A DNA stretch of 64,000 bases, taken from Jaapia argillacea MUCL 33604 (Eukaryota; Basidiomycota; Agaricomycetes; Jaapiales; Jaapiaceae). The stretch covers positions 1,113,923-1,177,922 of the forward strand of contig KL197710.1 in assembly GCA_000697665.1 (NCBI GenBank). The letters are read 5' to 3'. Within the stretch, counting starts at the first letter, position 1. The number at the start of each line of letters is the position of its first letter. The notes under the pieces were generated by a model. That model was not told the DNA's origin. It did no database searches and was given only the letters and a program-made list of their open reading frames with translations. The position numbers and the translations under genes were made by a program. This document shows positions 2,238-64,000 of this stretch, in pieces.

Positions 2238-3337
2238 CTACTTGCGCGCCTTGATTGAGTGTTTGAGCTGGATCAACAGAGCAGCCCCGGTGACCACGTC
2301 TTCGTCGAATATGATGCTGTATTCGCGAGGGATGATAACTGCTGACGAGAGGGAACCCATGAGCATAGGTTCAGCACGTTCGTTAGGAGGCCGACCTTCT
2401 GTTTCCCTTAACTCGGATTTACCATAGGTTTCAGGCTGGTGCACGTCGTCTATATCCGAGTCGTCGAAGTCGTTTTCTCTTCTTCGTTTCGATAGGCGTT
2501 CGCAGGCCCGTTCTAGCATATTCGACTGGTTGTTTGTGCTTCTTGGCGAGCCTCGAGCGGGCTCACATGGCGGGTCACCAGAGCCACTAGCAACCGGGGA
2601 TGAAGAAAGCCACTTCCAAAGATCTGCAGGTTCGACGCGTTCTTGTTGGACAACGTTGATTGGTGGAGGGGCATCCTTTCCGGTGGAGAAAAGTCGAGCT
2701 GGGAGGTCACAGTCTTCATATGCATTCATCGTCACGTTCTTGAAGCGACTGGGCCGCACAGGAGTAAGTGGAAGACGCAGAGTAGGTCGAGGGCCGATCG
2801 GAGTGAAGGTCGGCTGAGCAGAATCGAAACACTCCTGAACAAAGTCCCCAGTTGTGTCTCGAAGTGGCTCCGGTTGAAGGGGCGAATTCGACGAAGTAAT
2901 GGTACGGTTATCGCAAGTCTCATCGTGACCGTTCTCGATACCTGGGAGGTCACCGCTGTTTCTCTTGCTAGTTTGGCGTTTATTCTGAAACCATATATTG
3001 ACGGTCTTGAATTCCCTACAAGTTGGTGAGACTTCGAGATATGCGATTGCAACGGAAATGTTAACCACATTCCAAGTTCGTCGGCCAGTGCCTCCTTTTC
3101 CCGTCTTGAAGGATGGGTTACCGTTTCAAAGGTGGTCGCCAAGCGTTGGAACTGTACATCGGTCATCCGGTGACGAGCTTTCTTTGATCGGAGCCTCGAC
3201 GGAGCAGGGGTTGACAAAGCACCAGGAACACGGTTGTCAAAGTTCTCGTTCGTGGGCTGGCCGGGTTTGCGAGAGACGGTTGGCAGGGCAAGAGCATCAG
3301 AACTAGGACGACGATCGCCCTTTCGACGAGATGACAT
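2238..3337 (-). CDS. Homeodomain transcription factor (non-mating-type class)
   Basis: Predicted 349-residue DNA-binding protein with two exons (3337-3066 and 3015-2238). The 50-nt intron falls inside the homeodomain, before helix 3. The homeodomain lies at about residues 52-108: a basic arm (SKKARHRM), helices 1-2 (TDVQFQRLATTFE, REKEALADELGM) and recognition helix 'TVNIWFQNKRQTSKR', which carries the invariant W, F, N and R. The rest is low-complexity, with a basic patch (SKRRREN) and an acidic stretch (DFDDSDIDD). It lacks the atypical WFxxxRRR of HD1 and does not resemble HD2 outside the domain. It looks like the typical fungal homeobox regulators; related mushroom genes control fruiting-body development, but that role is only inferred here. 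The start at 3337 was chosen as the first Met in frame with the basic arm. Confidence 0.8.
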
Positions 3338-3639
3338 AGAGGTGGTGAATAGTAATGTGGGTAAAAGAATGGATTGGTAGACGGCGATAGTGTTTACTGT
3401 AGCCTGAACCTGAGGAAGAACGGAACCAAGAGTGGCGGACGTGGTAAACCGACGCCACCCAAACAAGAACAGACAACACCAGTCGTGAATCTGAACTTGA
3501 ATGAAAATATTTATTGCTAGAGATCAACCAACTAGATACATGTGTAGTCCTATGGTATGACATGGATTGCGTCCGATACATTTCCTATCCGAAAACATTC
3601 ATGAACATGAGCTCTTTCATACACCGCTTCCTAAAACCA
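3338..3639. other. Intergenic: homeobox gene promoter and F-box gene 3' end
   Basis: About 300 bases between the start of the homeobox gene and the stop of the F-box gene, both on the minus strand. It should hold the homeobox promoter and the F-box 3' UTR. I see no clear motif or RNA gene. Confidence 0.5.
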
Positions 3640-56614: not shown

Positions 56615-59116
56615 ATGCTCGCCCGACAAGGCAGGAATGCGCTGTTCAAGCCAACAAGCTCGACGTTTCGCTTTCGAGGATGTCTACACGCAAAACGGGA
56701 CGCAGCTAAAGTCGCTGTCCGAGCTGCTTCTACAGCTGTATCACCCACCACTATCGACGAGACATCCCTCGTTTCCCTCTTCGATGAACCGGACTTTAGC
56801 TCGAGATCGTCTCTGCCAACAACTGGTATCTTTGGACACCCTTCCCTTACAACTCCGGCAGCTTTCAACGCTCTCGCAGAGTCTACCCTGCGTCGGGCTC
56901 AACTGCTGACAGAGCGAGTCCTTCGGGCATCCCAGTCCCGAGAGGAGCTGTCGAAGGTCATCAAGAATCTGGATAGACTCAGTGATATGCTATGTGGTGT
57001 AATTGACTTGGCAGAACTCATTCGCAATGCGCATCCCGACATGCTGTGGATTGATAGCGCCAATGAGGTTTATGAGAAGTTGTGTGAGTTCATGAATGTT
57101 TTAAACACTCATGTTGGTCTGTACGAGGTGCGTCACATGAAGTCATCAGTTTCAAGTCCCTGCTGATCCGAGAATCCTCAGGTCCTCAAAGAGGTACTCT
57201 CGGATGCGAACCTGGTGAAGTCGTTAAGTCGGGAGGCGTATCAAACGGCCCTGATCTTTTGGAGAGACTTCGAGAAGTCCGGCATTGATCTTCCTCCCGA
57301 GGAGAGAAACCGTTTCGTCACCCTCTCCTCTGAAATCCTCAGCCTAGGCCGACAATTCCTCAACGAAGCCTCTGCCGCGCGACCGCCCACAGCTATCAAG
57401 TCTTCTGAGCTGGCGGGACTCAAAGACAAGGGAATGGGCGTCAGACTCCAGCTGCAAGCCCGCTTCACCCAGAAGGACCTATTGGTCTATCCAGGCTCGC
57501 TACAGGCTCAGATGATAATGCGTTCCGCTCCAGCCGAAGAACCCAGGCGGAAACTGTACATCGCAGCAAATTCCAGCGCGCCAGAACAGATCGAGACTCT
57601 GGAGAGGCTCCTTCAGGCGAGGGCGAAGTTGGCGCGGTTAGTTGGACGGGAGAGCTATGCCCACATGACGCTACTGGATAAAATGGCAAAATGTCCAGGT
57701 CAGTGAGCATACGCCTTTTTGGTTTGTATCGACTCTAAATTGAGTCTTTGATATAGAGAATGTACATCACTTCTTGGACGCGTTAATGGACCACACCCGG
57801 CCGTATGCTCGTGGTGCTCTCAAAACTCTCAGTGTGAGGAAGGAAGCTCATCTGAGGACTCCATCTTTGCCAGTCATTCAGCCATGGGATAGAGATTACT
57901 ACTGCCCGCCAGAACCACCTGCTCCCCCGGTTGCGTTACCACCCCTTACAGCCGGTACTGTCTTCATGGCACTCTCGCGGCTATTCCGACACATCTATGG
58001 CATCACCTTGCGGCCAGCAGAAGTGGCGCCTGGAGAGGTGTGGCATACCGATGTGAAGAAGCTGGAGGTCATCGATGAGGATGCTGGTCTGATTGGATGG
58101 ATCTATGCGGATTTGTTTGCGAGAAGAGGGAAGGCTGGTGGTGCCGCCCATTACACCGTTCGATGTTCAAGAAGAACGGATGATGATGATATGGCTGGCG
58201 ATTTAGCTGCCATCGGTGGTGAAGATCAGTTGCGTGATTGGGAGAAGCAGCAGCTGGAGCTTTCGAAGGAGTTCGAGGCGATGGGTCGGGGTAGGATCAA
58301 AGGTGTTGAGGGCGTATACCAGCTTCCCGTCGTGGTACTGCTGTGCGACTTTGCAAGGCCATCCCTCAAGAGGGGTGCAACTGTGCTGGAGTGGCACGAT
58401 GTCTTGACATTATTCCACGAAATGGGACACGCTATGCACTGTGAGTTTCCCGGATCTTCGTGATCGGGGTGAATCTGACAGTATTTTCAGCTATGATTGG
58501 CCGGACAGAGTACCAAAACGTTTCAGGAACTCGCTGTGCAACGGACTTCGTCGAGCTGCCCTCAATCTTGATGGAACATTTCCTCACTTCGCCAGCGGTG
58601 CTATCCTTGTTCGATCAAAATGGGACCCAAGTCAGACAGATAGGAAACCATCATGAAGATCCTTGTCACTACATAGACACCCACTCCCAAATTCTCCTCG
58701 CCATGCTGGATCAGACGTACCACACCTCGTCCGTCCTCGAACGCGACTTCGATTCTACAGCCGCCTTGGCGCACCTGCAATCAGCTCGTGGTCTCATCCC
58801 GTACGTCCCTGGTACATCATGGCAGACGCAGTTTGGCCATCTCTTCGGGTATGGCGCCACATACTACTCCTACCTCTTCGACCGCGCCATTGCGTCCCGG
58901 GTATGGCGGAAGATGTTCTCTCACGATCCTCTGAATAGGGAGACTGGAGAGAAATACAAGCGGGAGATTTTGCAGTACGGTGGTGGGAAGGATCCGTGGG
59001 CCATGGTTGGCGCCTTGCTCAACGCGCCCGAACTGGAGACGGGAGATGCGGAGGCTATGAGAGAGGTGGGCAAGTGGCGGTTGGAGGATGAGGTGGGGAT
59101 GTCTGGCAGGCACTGA
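56615..59116 (+). CDS. mip: Mitochondrial intermediate peptidase (M3 metallopeptidase)
   Basis: Zinc protease of about 770 residues that removes octapeptides from imported matrix proteins (yeast Oct1). Four main exons. The N-terminal transit peptide starts '[16 protein letters not shown]'. Core landmarks are '[15 protein letters not shown]', '[20 protein letters not shown]', '[15 protein letters not shown]', then the M3 active site '[12 protein letters not shown]' split from '[20 protein letters not shown]' by an intron, then '[14 protein letters not shown]' and '[18 protein letters not shown]'. The two zinc His and catalytic Glu (HExxH) are intact; the third ligand Glu lies in '[12 protein letters not shown]'. 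MIP is closely linked to the homeodomain mating-type locus in most Agaricomycetes and is used as its marker; here it lies about 0.45 kb from HD1, tail to tail. Confidence 0.95.
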
Positions 59117-59566: not shown

Positions 59567-61926
59567 TTAGTACAGGAACGGTGAGGTGCGAAAATGGACG
59601 TACAATCCAACGCTGAGCTCTTGCTCCAATGCCTGGGCAGCATCTTTATAAAGTTGCAGCTGGTGACGTTTTCGTTGGATCTCCAGGGCATCTGCTTGAA
59701 GGGTCACGGGAGAAGGAGCGGAATATTGGTCGAACGACGAAGTCGAACCTTGGACAGGGTCTAGGTGATCCATCTGCGACGAGAAAGGGATTTGAGTTTC
59801 GAGATGGGGTAACCCGAGGAGTTCTGAGATGTCGAAGCCGGGCAAGGTACATGGTGTGGGTTGTTGAGGCTGCTGGAACATAAAAGCAGCGGGATTGGTG
59901 CATGTGGTCTCCATATATGGCGCGAAGCTGTCATATGAGAACTGCTGGGAGGAATTTTGAGTGGGAAGGGGTAGTGAGCAATCGAACGATCCTGGCTGTA
60001 CCATGGGCAGATCCGACAATGGGGGGACGTTCTCGGCAAACGAAGACGACGACGACGCTTGCGATTGTTGTGCAAGGAGGTCCACCACGAAGTCCGAGAG
60101 TGCAGACCAACCCTCGTCATTGGAAGTTGTCGTGTCAAAACCTGATGGTGTCGCGGATTGTAAATCGAAGGTGGGGATCTCCACCTGCGGCAGAGGTTGC
60201 GGTGTGGGGCCTACGGTGAGAGTTTTAGGTATTGAGAACACAAACAAGAAGGCAGAAACTCACTCTTCGACGGTATGTTCTGAGCGGAAACAACAGAGCC
60301 ATTGTCGCCCCAGATTTGCCAATTGCTGAAGACCTCCACATCAATGGCTGAACTATCGAGCTCCTCTGTGGTGACGGATGCGGGGGGTTCAAAGTTGAAC
60401 ATGTTCTCCCATCCAAAGATAGGGTCATCGCCGAAGCTGAGCGATCGTGACATGGGGAGAGGATTCGACACAGCTTGTGGGCGGAAACCATGCTGGGAGG
60501 CTCGAGGGCGCTTCGGTGCTCCCTGTGCGTCTGCGTCCGAGAGACGGCGCTTGCGAGAGGCGGTAACGGGGACGATAGGTTCCGGAGCCGGAAGGGGTGA
60601 GTTTGACTGGGACAGGTCCCAAGACCATTGATCGAAGCTCGTGTCAACCACCAACAAAGGCGACAGTTCGGATGTTGGTGAGGGGATTTGTGGTGAATGT
60701 CGTGGTGGGGATTGCGTTCTGGAAATGCCAAAGTGAGTTGACGACATAGTGATGAAAGGAGGCACAACATACCGACGACGTTTCTCTCGTTGATCTTGAC
60801 GGATGGTGTCATCCTCATCTCGGGAGGACTTGCGCTTCTTGTGAATTGCCTTCGGAGGTGCCTGGGGCATGTCCAATTCTTCATCTTGAAAGTAGTCGCT
60901 GTCGTAAAGCTCTTCCAGAGAATCACCATCATCGCTGTCATCAGACAGCGACCAACTTGGCGAGGGTGTACGCGAGTCGAGAGGGGATCTCCGGGATCCC
61001 GTCCGCCTTTGTGTCTCACGCATCGCTTTCTGGGTAGCCCTCTGTTTGGCTTGCTCCTTTCTCCTCTCTTTCTTCTCCTTCTCCTTCTGCTCCCTCTCGG
61101 CCAAGTATGATCGAACCTTCTGTTCATCCCATCGCTGCCTATCCGCTTCGCTCATGTCCTTCACCAATACATCCAATTCCCGCGCCAGCTTACTCTTCTT
61201 CAACTTGTCTGCGCACAAACCCTCCGCCTTCAACTTCATCAACAAGAATTGATGGGTGGCGGGACACTCGATAGGGCGTCGCTTGTCGTCCTTTTCGAAG
61301 ACACGCGTGGCAGCATCCACCATGTCAGCGCGCGAGTTATTGAAGTGCTCTTTGGCGATCTCGTTCCAACCGATGCGACGACGCGCGCTGGTGAACCAGG
61401 TATCAACCGAAGCGTACGTGCAGCCAGTGCTGTCCGCAACGGATTGTTTGAATTCTTTGGAGGGGTATGGATTGTGGATGTTACGCAGTAGCCACTTGTA
61501 GCACGGAAGAACAAAGGCAGGGCAAGGGGTACGTATATCCATGTCCTGAAAAGTTGAAGTTTCGATTGTCGGACATTGGAGGAGAACATGATGGTGCGGC
61601 GGATACGGGGCACGTGAGGGCTGAACATCATCACCGATGGTATCGAATATATTGTCGAGCTCTTTGGATAAACTCGAAGTGAGCGAATCGAAACTGGCAT
61701 GAACTTCGAGAAGTCGTTCAGCTAGTATCGCTATTCGCGACGCCGCAGAATGGGCGAGACGGATCGTCTCTTCGCTAAGCAGGTGACTCTGCATGGCTTC
61801 GTCGATATCATCCTGAAGCTTTAGCCATGAACTTTCGAATGCAGATGTGGCGGAAGGGTCATCGGTGGAAGAATTGAGGAGATCAATTTCAGCGGAGAGC
61901 AGTCGTCTCCGAATAGATTCGTCCAT
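59567..61926 (-). CDS. HD1: HD1-type homeodomain mating-type protein (matA locus)
   Basis: About 750-residue HD1 partner of the mating-type heterodimer. Exons 61926-60773, 60718-60264 and 60210-59567 join in frame (introns of 54 and 53 nt). The N-terminal part (MDESIRRRLLSAEIDLLNS) is the specificity and dimerisation region. The homeodomain lies at about residues 130-190: 'CPAFVLPCYKWLLRNIHNPYP', and helix 3 'DTWFTSARRRIGW', the atypical WFxxxRRR of HD1. Then come Lys/Arg-rich nuclear-localisation stretches (EREQKEKEKKERRKEQAKQR, KKRKSSRD) and a Ser/Pro/Gln-rich tail, likely transactivating. After mating, HD1 of one nucleus pairs with HD2 of the other and controls dikaryon growth. A Met at 62100 exists, but it would leave only 33 bp before HD2. 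The 3' end may be spliced once more, with a stop at 59545. Confidence 0.9.
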
Positions 61927-62133
61927 CGTTAGGTTGAAGTCGTTCGAGGGGGTTGTGGTCTGGTTGATGGTGTTGGCGTTAAGAGAGCAGCGCGGACAGT
62001 GCTTGAGATTGTATCTCCGACAATCACGCCGAGGGACAATGGTTCGGCACGAACAGAGTTCCACAATGTGATTTCTCACACTTGAAAGGCTGGCTTTCAA
62101 TTTCTGTGGCTCGCTTTTCCATCCGCCCTCACT
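61927..62133. promoter_or_regulatory. Bidirectional promoter between HD1 and HD2
   Basis: 207 bp separate the divergent HD1 and HD2 start codons, the usual compact layout of agaricomycete HD pairs. No binding site can be named by eye. The HD1 frame stays open through most of this spacer, which probably is 5' UTR. Confidence 0.6.
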
Positions 62134-64000
62134 ATGCCTCCTACCGGTCGTTCACGCCTCACCGATGCCTTCAGTCACATCCTGCAGACAGGGGATGAAC
62201 TGAAGAAGCTGAGTCAAGCGGCCGTCTCCTCCTCTATGCTGACCCAAGCTGCCCCATCTCCATCGGTTCAAGTGACTTTACCAGAACCCCCACCCATCTA
62301 TGGCAGCCTGGTTTCTTTGGGTCTTCAGCCAGCGTTAGCTGAAACCCTATCTGCCAAGTATGCGCGCCGTGCAGGTGATCTACGGCTCCACGCTGAATCC
62401 ACTATCTCGCGAGCCCTCACCAAGTTAGCTATGTTGCCTCGTCACACCAGCTTGAGGCCTCAGTCAGAGTTAGATAATCAAGTATCCGTCGTGTATCGCG
62501 GGCAGTATCTGCGAACGGTTCAAAACCTAGCGAAGGAGACGGTAGATCTTGCCACTGCGTTCGTTTCTCGCCGCTCAGAACCCTGTCGTGATTCTGTGGC
62601 ATCTACGCCAACCCGTGATGATCTCCCACAAGCCCGAGCGACCTTCAATCAGGTACGCTCTATTCATGGCTATTGGTTACTTCAGCTCAACTGCAGCAGG
62701 AGTATCTGCCAATGCTTGAATTCGCATTCAAAGAAAATCCATTCCCGTCCCACGCAGACAAAGCAGCCTTTGCTAAGAAATCCGGTATGACATATCGACA
62801 GATCCATGTCTGGGTACGTCTCCTTGCGCTGCTTCAGCGTTTCAGTTTGCTCATCTGTGGCAGTTCCAAAACCGGCGCAGCCGAGCCAAGAGGGATGGTG
62901 TACGACTTCGAAAAGTCGACATCAACAATACTACGAAGTTCAATTTTGACCCGCTCATCAGTCGTCTCAAAGATGAAGGCTTGGACGAGAGGGTCATCCC
63001 AGAGGGTGAAAGAGTCAAGCCAGTTGACTCAGACGCCTCAGAGTACGAGTGGCACTACTTTACCAGCGATGATGAAGAAGGCGTACGTGACTCTGCTATC
63101 CTTTCAAGCGCTATCCTGAAATTATATTTTCTAGCCTGCAGCTAAACGCCGCACATCATTTCACGCCAACTCACCCGACCCCTTCTCATATCAAACGCCA
63201 TCTCACACGTTCCCTACACCGTATCCTCCCGTCTGTGAAGTTGAGCCTTTCCCCATCAAGGATGGTATCCATCACCTTCCACCGCCAGTATGGCCGCGGA
63301 AACCCGTTGCCCAACTTGCTGCCCAGCCACCTGTCGACATGGACACGTTCGCTGAAGCATTCGCAAAACTCAGCGTGCGAGTTGGCCCCATCAAGATCTT
63401 CCGCAAGAAACCAGAGGTTCCCAGAAAGTCCTCGAAACCCAAGCGAACTTCGACGCCTCCACCAAAGCCTGATCGTAGTGCGGCTACGTCCGCAATTACC
63501 ACCAAGCCCATGCCAGCTCCTCTACCGTCATTCGTCTCGGTCAAGAGGCGAAGGCTTCCTACATTGACGATCACCCCTGCATCCCCTCTTCCAGGCAGAA
63601 CAATCCCGACTTCTACCTTGCATCGATTGCACGCATTCCGTACTCCCAGTCCGAAATCGGCGCATGCCTCGCTGGTTGCTGAAGCCTTGAGGTCAAATCA
63701 ACCTGCTCCGCGGAAAGTCGCACCTTTACCTCAACGGGCCGCCGCGCATACGCGACCCCGTGGTGTGTCCCCTATTGTATCGGACGCTACAATCTCGCCG
63801 CAGCGGTCGCGATCATCGACGCTGGAACCCGAGGATCATTTCCTCCCCCTCTCATCACCCGTTGGTCGGACTGCGATGAATTATCCTCGGCCCACCCAAC
63901 CTTACGCGACTCGGAGACCATCGCCCGATCCTGCGCGTCCACCCCCTTCCCGCACATCCCAAGTAATACCATATTCCACATCCACCTCCTCCACCACACC
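62134..64000 (+). CDS. HD2: HD2-type homeodomain mating-type protein (matA locus), 5' part
   Basis: HD2 partner of the mating-type pair, cut by the window end. Exons start at 62134, 62697 and 62864, with later ones. The N-terminal specificity region (MPPTGRSRLTDAFSHILQTG) is joined by a 44-nt intron to the homeodomain: 'QEYLPMLEFAFKENPFPSHA', 'ADKAAFAKKSGMTYRQIHVW' then, after an intron, 'FQNRRSRAKRDGVRLRKV'. Helix 3 has the canonical WFQNRR. The intron before 'FQNRR' is typical of HD2 genes. Downstream the protein is acidic (DEGLDERV, SDASEYEWHYF) and then long, Pro/Ser/Arg-rich. HD2 supplies essential DNA binding in the HD1-HD2 dimer. No stop is reached before 64000, so length is unknown. 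Confidence 0.92.

Follow-up and report, generated by a model that had tools for sequence, protein, structure and literature searches.

A divergent HD1/HD2 gene pair at a probable matA mating-type locus in Jaapia argillacea

The end of the window (the whole 64,000-nucleotide stretch of Jaapia argillacea DNA that we analysed), together with the contig sequence just past it, very probably contains an Agaricomycete matA (HD) mating-type locus with a divergent HD1/HD2 homeodomain gene pair, a reading to which we give a probability of roughly 0.93. It is well supported by the anatomy of the locus: the domain content of the two genes, their divergent orientation, a MIP-like M3 peptidase gene beside HD1 and a beta-fg-like gene beyond HD2. 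The gene order is mip-like, HD1/HD2, beta-fg-like, with the beta-fg-like gene lying beyond the window end. We describe one haplotype of what is a well-preserved, ordinary matA, of a kind known from many related fungi, and the locus alters no general understanding. Allele diversity, allele-specific N-terminal halves of the two proteins and control of mating would be expected in J. argillacea by analogy with the literature on its relatives.

The HD1 gene occupies 59567-61926 on the minus strand, with exons at 61926-60773, 60718-60264 and 60210-59567 that encode a 750-residue model. The 54-base intron at 60772-60719 is in frame and optional, and leaving it unspliced gives 768 residues. HD1 matched three Pfam domains, all over their curated cut-offs: Homeobox_KN (4.4e-13), Mating_N (1.8e-7) and Mating_C (1.2e-6). 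The longest stop-free frame in 59567-62151, at 646 residues, lies under HD1; none of 300 first-order Markov resamples contained one as long, their longest frames averaging 164 residues and reaching 451 at most. Pfam and an ungapped alignment to Meis2 place a TALE-type homeodomain core at about residues 145-185 (61372-61494, minus strand), and among solved structures the Meis1/2 TALE homeodomains aligned to this core with no gap. Structure prediction of residues 1-230 gave a mean pLDDT of 48, a low confidence that is too uncertain to weigh. K[KR]x[KR] basic motifs occur five times in HD1 and once in HD2, and a scan of both proteins for a simple bipartite nuclear-localisation pattern found a match in neither.

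HD2 lies on the plus strand at 62134-64451 and is cut by the window edge at 64000, so we built its model from the window and the contig sequence past it. Four exons (62134-62652, 62700-62813, 62864-63082 and 63135-64451) encode 722 residues, or 723 with an acceptor three bases earlier. Residues 167-221 matched the homeodomain profile PF00046 (5.5e-14) over positions 3-57 of 57, and among solved structures the top scores were with the DUX4 homeodomains. The first, N-terminal exon is predicted to be mostly helical, with a moderate mean pLDDT of 64 in the best of five models; pLDDT ranged from 38 to 64 across the five and was below 50 in three of them. A TALE-type core in HD1 beside an ordinary homeodomain in HD2 fits the published size difference, in which HD1 homeodomains have three extra residues and HD2 homeodomains the usual 60 (PMC10739230, PMC4101180).

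The start codons of HD1 (61926, minus) and HD2 (62134, plus) leave a gap of 207 bp, at 61927-62133 and assigned to no strand, which is presumably a shared divergent promoter. This bears out the first-pass annotation, which had described a divergent pair over 207 bp, with WFxxxRRR in helix III of HD1 and WFQNRR in that of HD2; the sequences that we find there are WFTSARRR and WFQNRRSR. Its span for the locus, 59567-64000, was right at one end: HD1 stops at 59567, but 64000 is only the edge of the window, and the stop codon of HD2 falls at window-equivalent 64451. HD2 keeps the WFxNxR motif. HD1 lacks it, with a serine in place of the asparagine. This motif is usual in HD1 proteins and yet is not a strict criterion of membership, because HD1 is reported to tolerate some exchanges in this helix (PMC4101180). 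For Wolfiporia hoelen HD1, the motif is reported as not found (PMC9503964); the contrary case is Pleurotus, for which WFXNXR is described in both the HD1 and HD2 classes (PMC10739230). With tolerated changes and degenerate HD1 homeodomains already published, the deviation in our HD1 is not new.

On the HD1 side, the adjoining gene at 56615-59116 (plus strand; exons 56615-57127, 57182-57698, 57757-58440 and 58491-59116) encodes a 779-residue M3 metallopeptidase in which HEMGHAMH is present, and the frames of exons 2, 3 and 4 matched Peptidase_M3 (PF01432) over cut-off. The MIP neighbour proposed in the first-pass annotation is in place as an M3 peptidase gene, which we take to be MIP rather than another M3 peptidase from its position and from general knowledge of such loci. 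A Cob_adeno_trans match to the first-exon frame was below cut-off and was taken as chance. Past the window, frames were listed for the adjoining contig segment, where a splice model and Pfam identify a DUF7721 gene at window-equivalent 64876-66327 on the minus strand, convergent with HD2. Its model has 353 residues (DUF7721, 1.4e-29) and seven introns, one of them immediately after the start codon, and the N-terminal half of the protein is repetitive, with glycine-rich near-repeats. From its position and gene structure, we took this gene as the putative beta-flanking gene; a literature search turned up no paper connecting DUF7721 with beta-flanking. An intron after the start codon is described for beta-fg genes, as are enlarged forms with N-terminal repeats in Agaricus bisporus and R. 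placenta (PMC8305134). The gene that follows encodes a flavin monooxygenase-like protein with DUF6314. Divergent HD pairs between mip and beta-fg have been described (PMC3140503, PMC3564976, PMC8305134). The matA reading of the first-pass annotation is upheld by Homeobox_KN, Mating_N and Mating_C in HD1, the homeodomain in HD2 and these two flanks.

Whether more HD pairs follow past the window had been raised as a check. We searched the whole assembly (43.7 Mb in 95 contigs) with the profiles PF05920, PF00046 and PF12731, the N-terminal 385 residues of HD1 and the HD2 protein, and no second HD pair or allele came up; because the searches worked on one exon at a time, they might miss a degenerate copy. 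PF05920 had three matches (HD1, HD2 and one on contig C3), PF00046 had ten, HD2 included, and Mating_N had one, which is HD1 at 59567-61926. The HD1 segment recovered itself and a weak match on C3 (E = 0.15). All four matches to HD2 fell within the HD2 gene itself; two of these were at 87-91%, as their alignments crossed intron edges. On C2, the 2.54-Mb contig that carries the HD pair, other homeodomain matches lie at 275 kb, 959-960 kb, 1.117 Mb and 1.42 Mb. Their helix III sequences are WFQNKR (275 kb, 959 kb and 1.117 Mb), WFQNQR and WFRNLR (960 kb) and WFANKR (1.42 Mb), and the profile searches of the assembly found no HD1-class match beside any of these genes. The three successive matches at C2:959357-960541 (WFQNKR, WFQNQR and WFRNLR within 1.2 kb) apparently belong to a single gene with three homeodomains.

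The window itself holds a second homeodomain gene, at 2238-3523 on the minus strand, in which an intron splits the homeodomain and helix III reads WFQNKRQ. Its two frames gave no match to a mating-type domain, and the gene resembles one for a general transcription factor. Ten other large frames lie at 7226-46941. Six of the ten had a Pfam match at E of 0.001 or less (PB1, ketopantoate reductase, transglutaminase-like, glycine cleavage P-protein, PPR repeats and, below cut-off, F-box-like), and four had none. Genome-wide, Cu-oxidase (PF00394) gave at least five matches at three places, a lower bound given that the genome was read exon by exon; this number is low for a wood-decay Agaricomycete.

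Searching the assembly for STE3 receptors (PF02076) gave 62 matches, which we grouped into 17 receptor loci: nine on contig C50, five on C47 and one each on C20, C23 and C75. None of the 62 falls on C2. Receptor matches confined to other contigs would fit a tetrapolar species, but contigs are not chromosomes, and bipolar species such as A. bisporus may retain pheromone and receptor genes that have no mating-type role (PMC8305134). C47 and C50 could be parts of one pheromone/receptor region or separate expansions. Two of the four PF08015 matches in the assembly, on C50 near 16.4 and 20.0 kb, passed the cut-off, and the other two, on C16 and C8, fell below it; the pheromone-like frame at 20.0 kb has CVVA as its last four residues. 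When 12 loci were scanned for CaaX ends, six frames came up, among them the 16.4-kb frame again. Two others, on C50 near 23.3 kb and on C47 near 30.7 kb, look like pheromone precursors, and the remaining three were taken as chance.

We weighed three other explanations of the HD pair. The further homeodomain genes in the genome could suggest that the pair has a general developmental role and forms no mating-type locus. We consider this scarcely credible: HD1 is the only Mating_N match in the assembly, the alignment of the C3 match to it is weak, and MIP-like and beta-fg-like genes flank the pair. The other matches on C2 also bear on whether the pair is one sublocus of a split matA with its second sublocus elsewhere, as in Schizophyllum or Flammulina, and such loci are described (PMC3140503). 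This arrangement is very unlikely here, as none of those C2 matches has an HD1-class neighbour and no second copy came up with Mating_N, the HD1 segment or HD2, searches that a very divergent HD2-only sublocus could nevertheless escape.

The third explanation accepts the locus and supposes that it is intact but no longer governs mating, as in a homothallic or asexual lineage. The missing asparagine in helix III of HD1 is what speaks for it, and the tolerance of some exchanges at this helix (PMC4101180) weakens that point. Against such a loss, the spliced frames of HD1 and HD2 are both open over more than 700 codons, HD1 retains its Mating_N domain, and receptor and pheromone-like genes are present in the genome. 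We regard loss of mating control as unlikely and favour a matA locus that would govern mating.

How this matA would act can be proposed from its relatives, in which N-terminal domains select HD1-HD2 partners across haplotypes, HD1 contributes nuclear-localisation signals and an activation region with weak DNA binding, and HD2 binds DNA strongly (PMC3140503, PMC10739230, PMC8305134). After fusion of compatible cells, HD1 of one nucleus would pair with HD2 of the other through the N-terminal helical region of HD1, and HD1 and HD2 from the same haplotype would not pair. The heterodimer would then act in the nucleus, with HD2 as the main DNA contact and HD1 supplying the nuclear-localisation and activation regions, and would turn on dikaryon development. 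The basic motifs, the helical prediction for the HD2 first exon and the STE3-like and pheromone-like genes found outside this locus speak for this reading; the asparagine missing from HD1, the low-confidence structure models and the failure of the bipartite pattern to match weigh against it. Heterodimer choice, nuclear import, target activation and multi-allelism are all taken over by analogy from these relatives. A more speculative possibility, which we hold to be rather doubtful, is that HD1 gave up base-specific DNA contact with its exchange of asparagine for serine, leaving HD2 alone to read DNA and HD1 as a subunit for partner recognition, import and activation. If true, this would be a variant of a division of labour that was proposed earlier for other Agaricomycetes. 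As to alleles, different mating types in Trichaptum are reported to need less than 86% protein identity (PMC8970355), and a comparison of Wolfiporia species gave 37% identity for HD1 and 38% for HD2 against at least 95% in the surrounding proteins (PMC9503964), the latter figures illustrating a possible pattern of allelic divergence with conserved flanks.

Among the systems that we compared, matA of Serpula lacrymans likewise has one HD1 and one HD2 gene, there between mip and bfg and here between MIP-like and beta-fg-like genes, and its STE3 and pheromone genes also cluster on a scaffold other than that of matA (PMC3564976). In strain S7.9, mip and HD1 are separated by an insertion of 18 kb that is absent here and in S7.3, and the MAT B cluster of that species has five STE3-like genes, compared with our 17 loci across an assembly, counts that are not like for like (PMC3564976). 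Agaricus bisporus has the order mip1-HD1/HD2-beta-fg, with beta-fg downstream of HD2 on the opposite strand and interrupted by an intron right behind its start codon (PMC8305134), and the MIP-like and beta-fg-like genes of J. argillacea agree with it in these points. One of its beta-fg forms is enlarged by N-terminal repeats, and the repeats here are glycine-rich; beta-fg is present there in two copies and further HD genes occur, whereas we find one HD pair and one adjoining beta-fg-like gene (PMC8305134). The Polyporales Pycnoporus, Postia and Phanerochaete have a single HD1 gene at matA, as here, and helix III of Pycnoporus HD1 is described as degenerate, in line with the helix without asparagine in our HD1 (PMC4101180). 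In these three Polyporales the order is inverted, with HD1 adjoining beta-fg (PMC4101180); in J. argillacea HD1 adjoins the MIP-like gene, which makes this the non-inverted form of matA.
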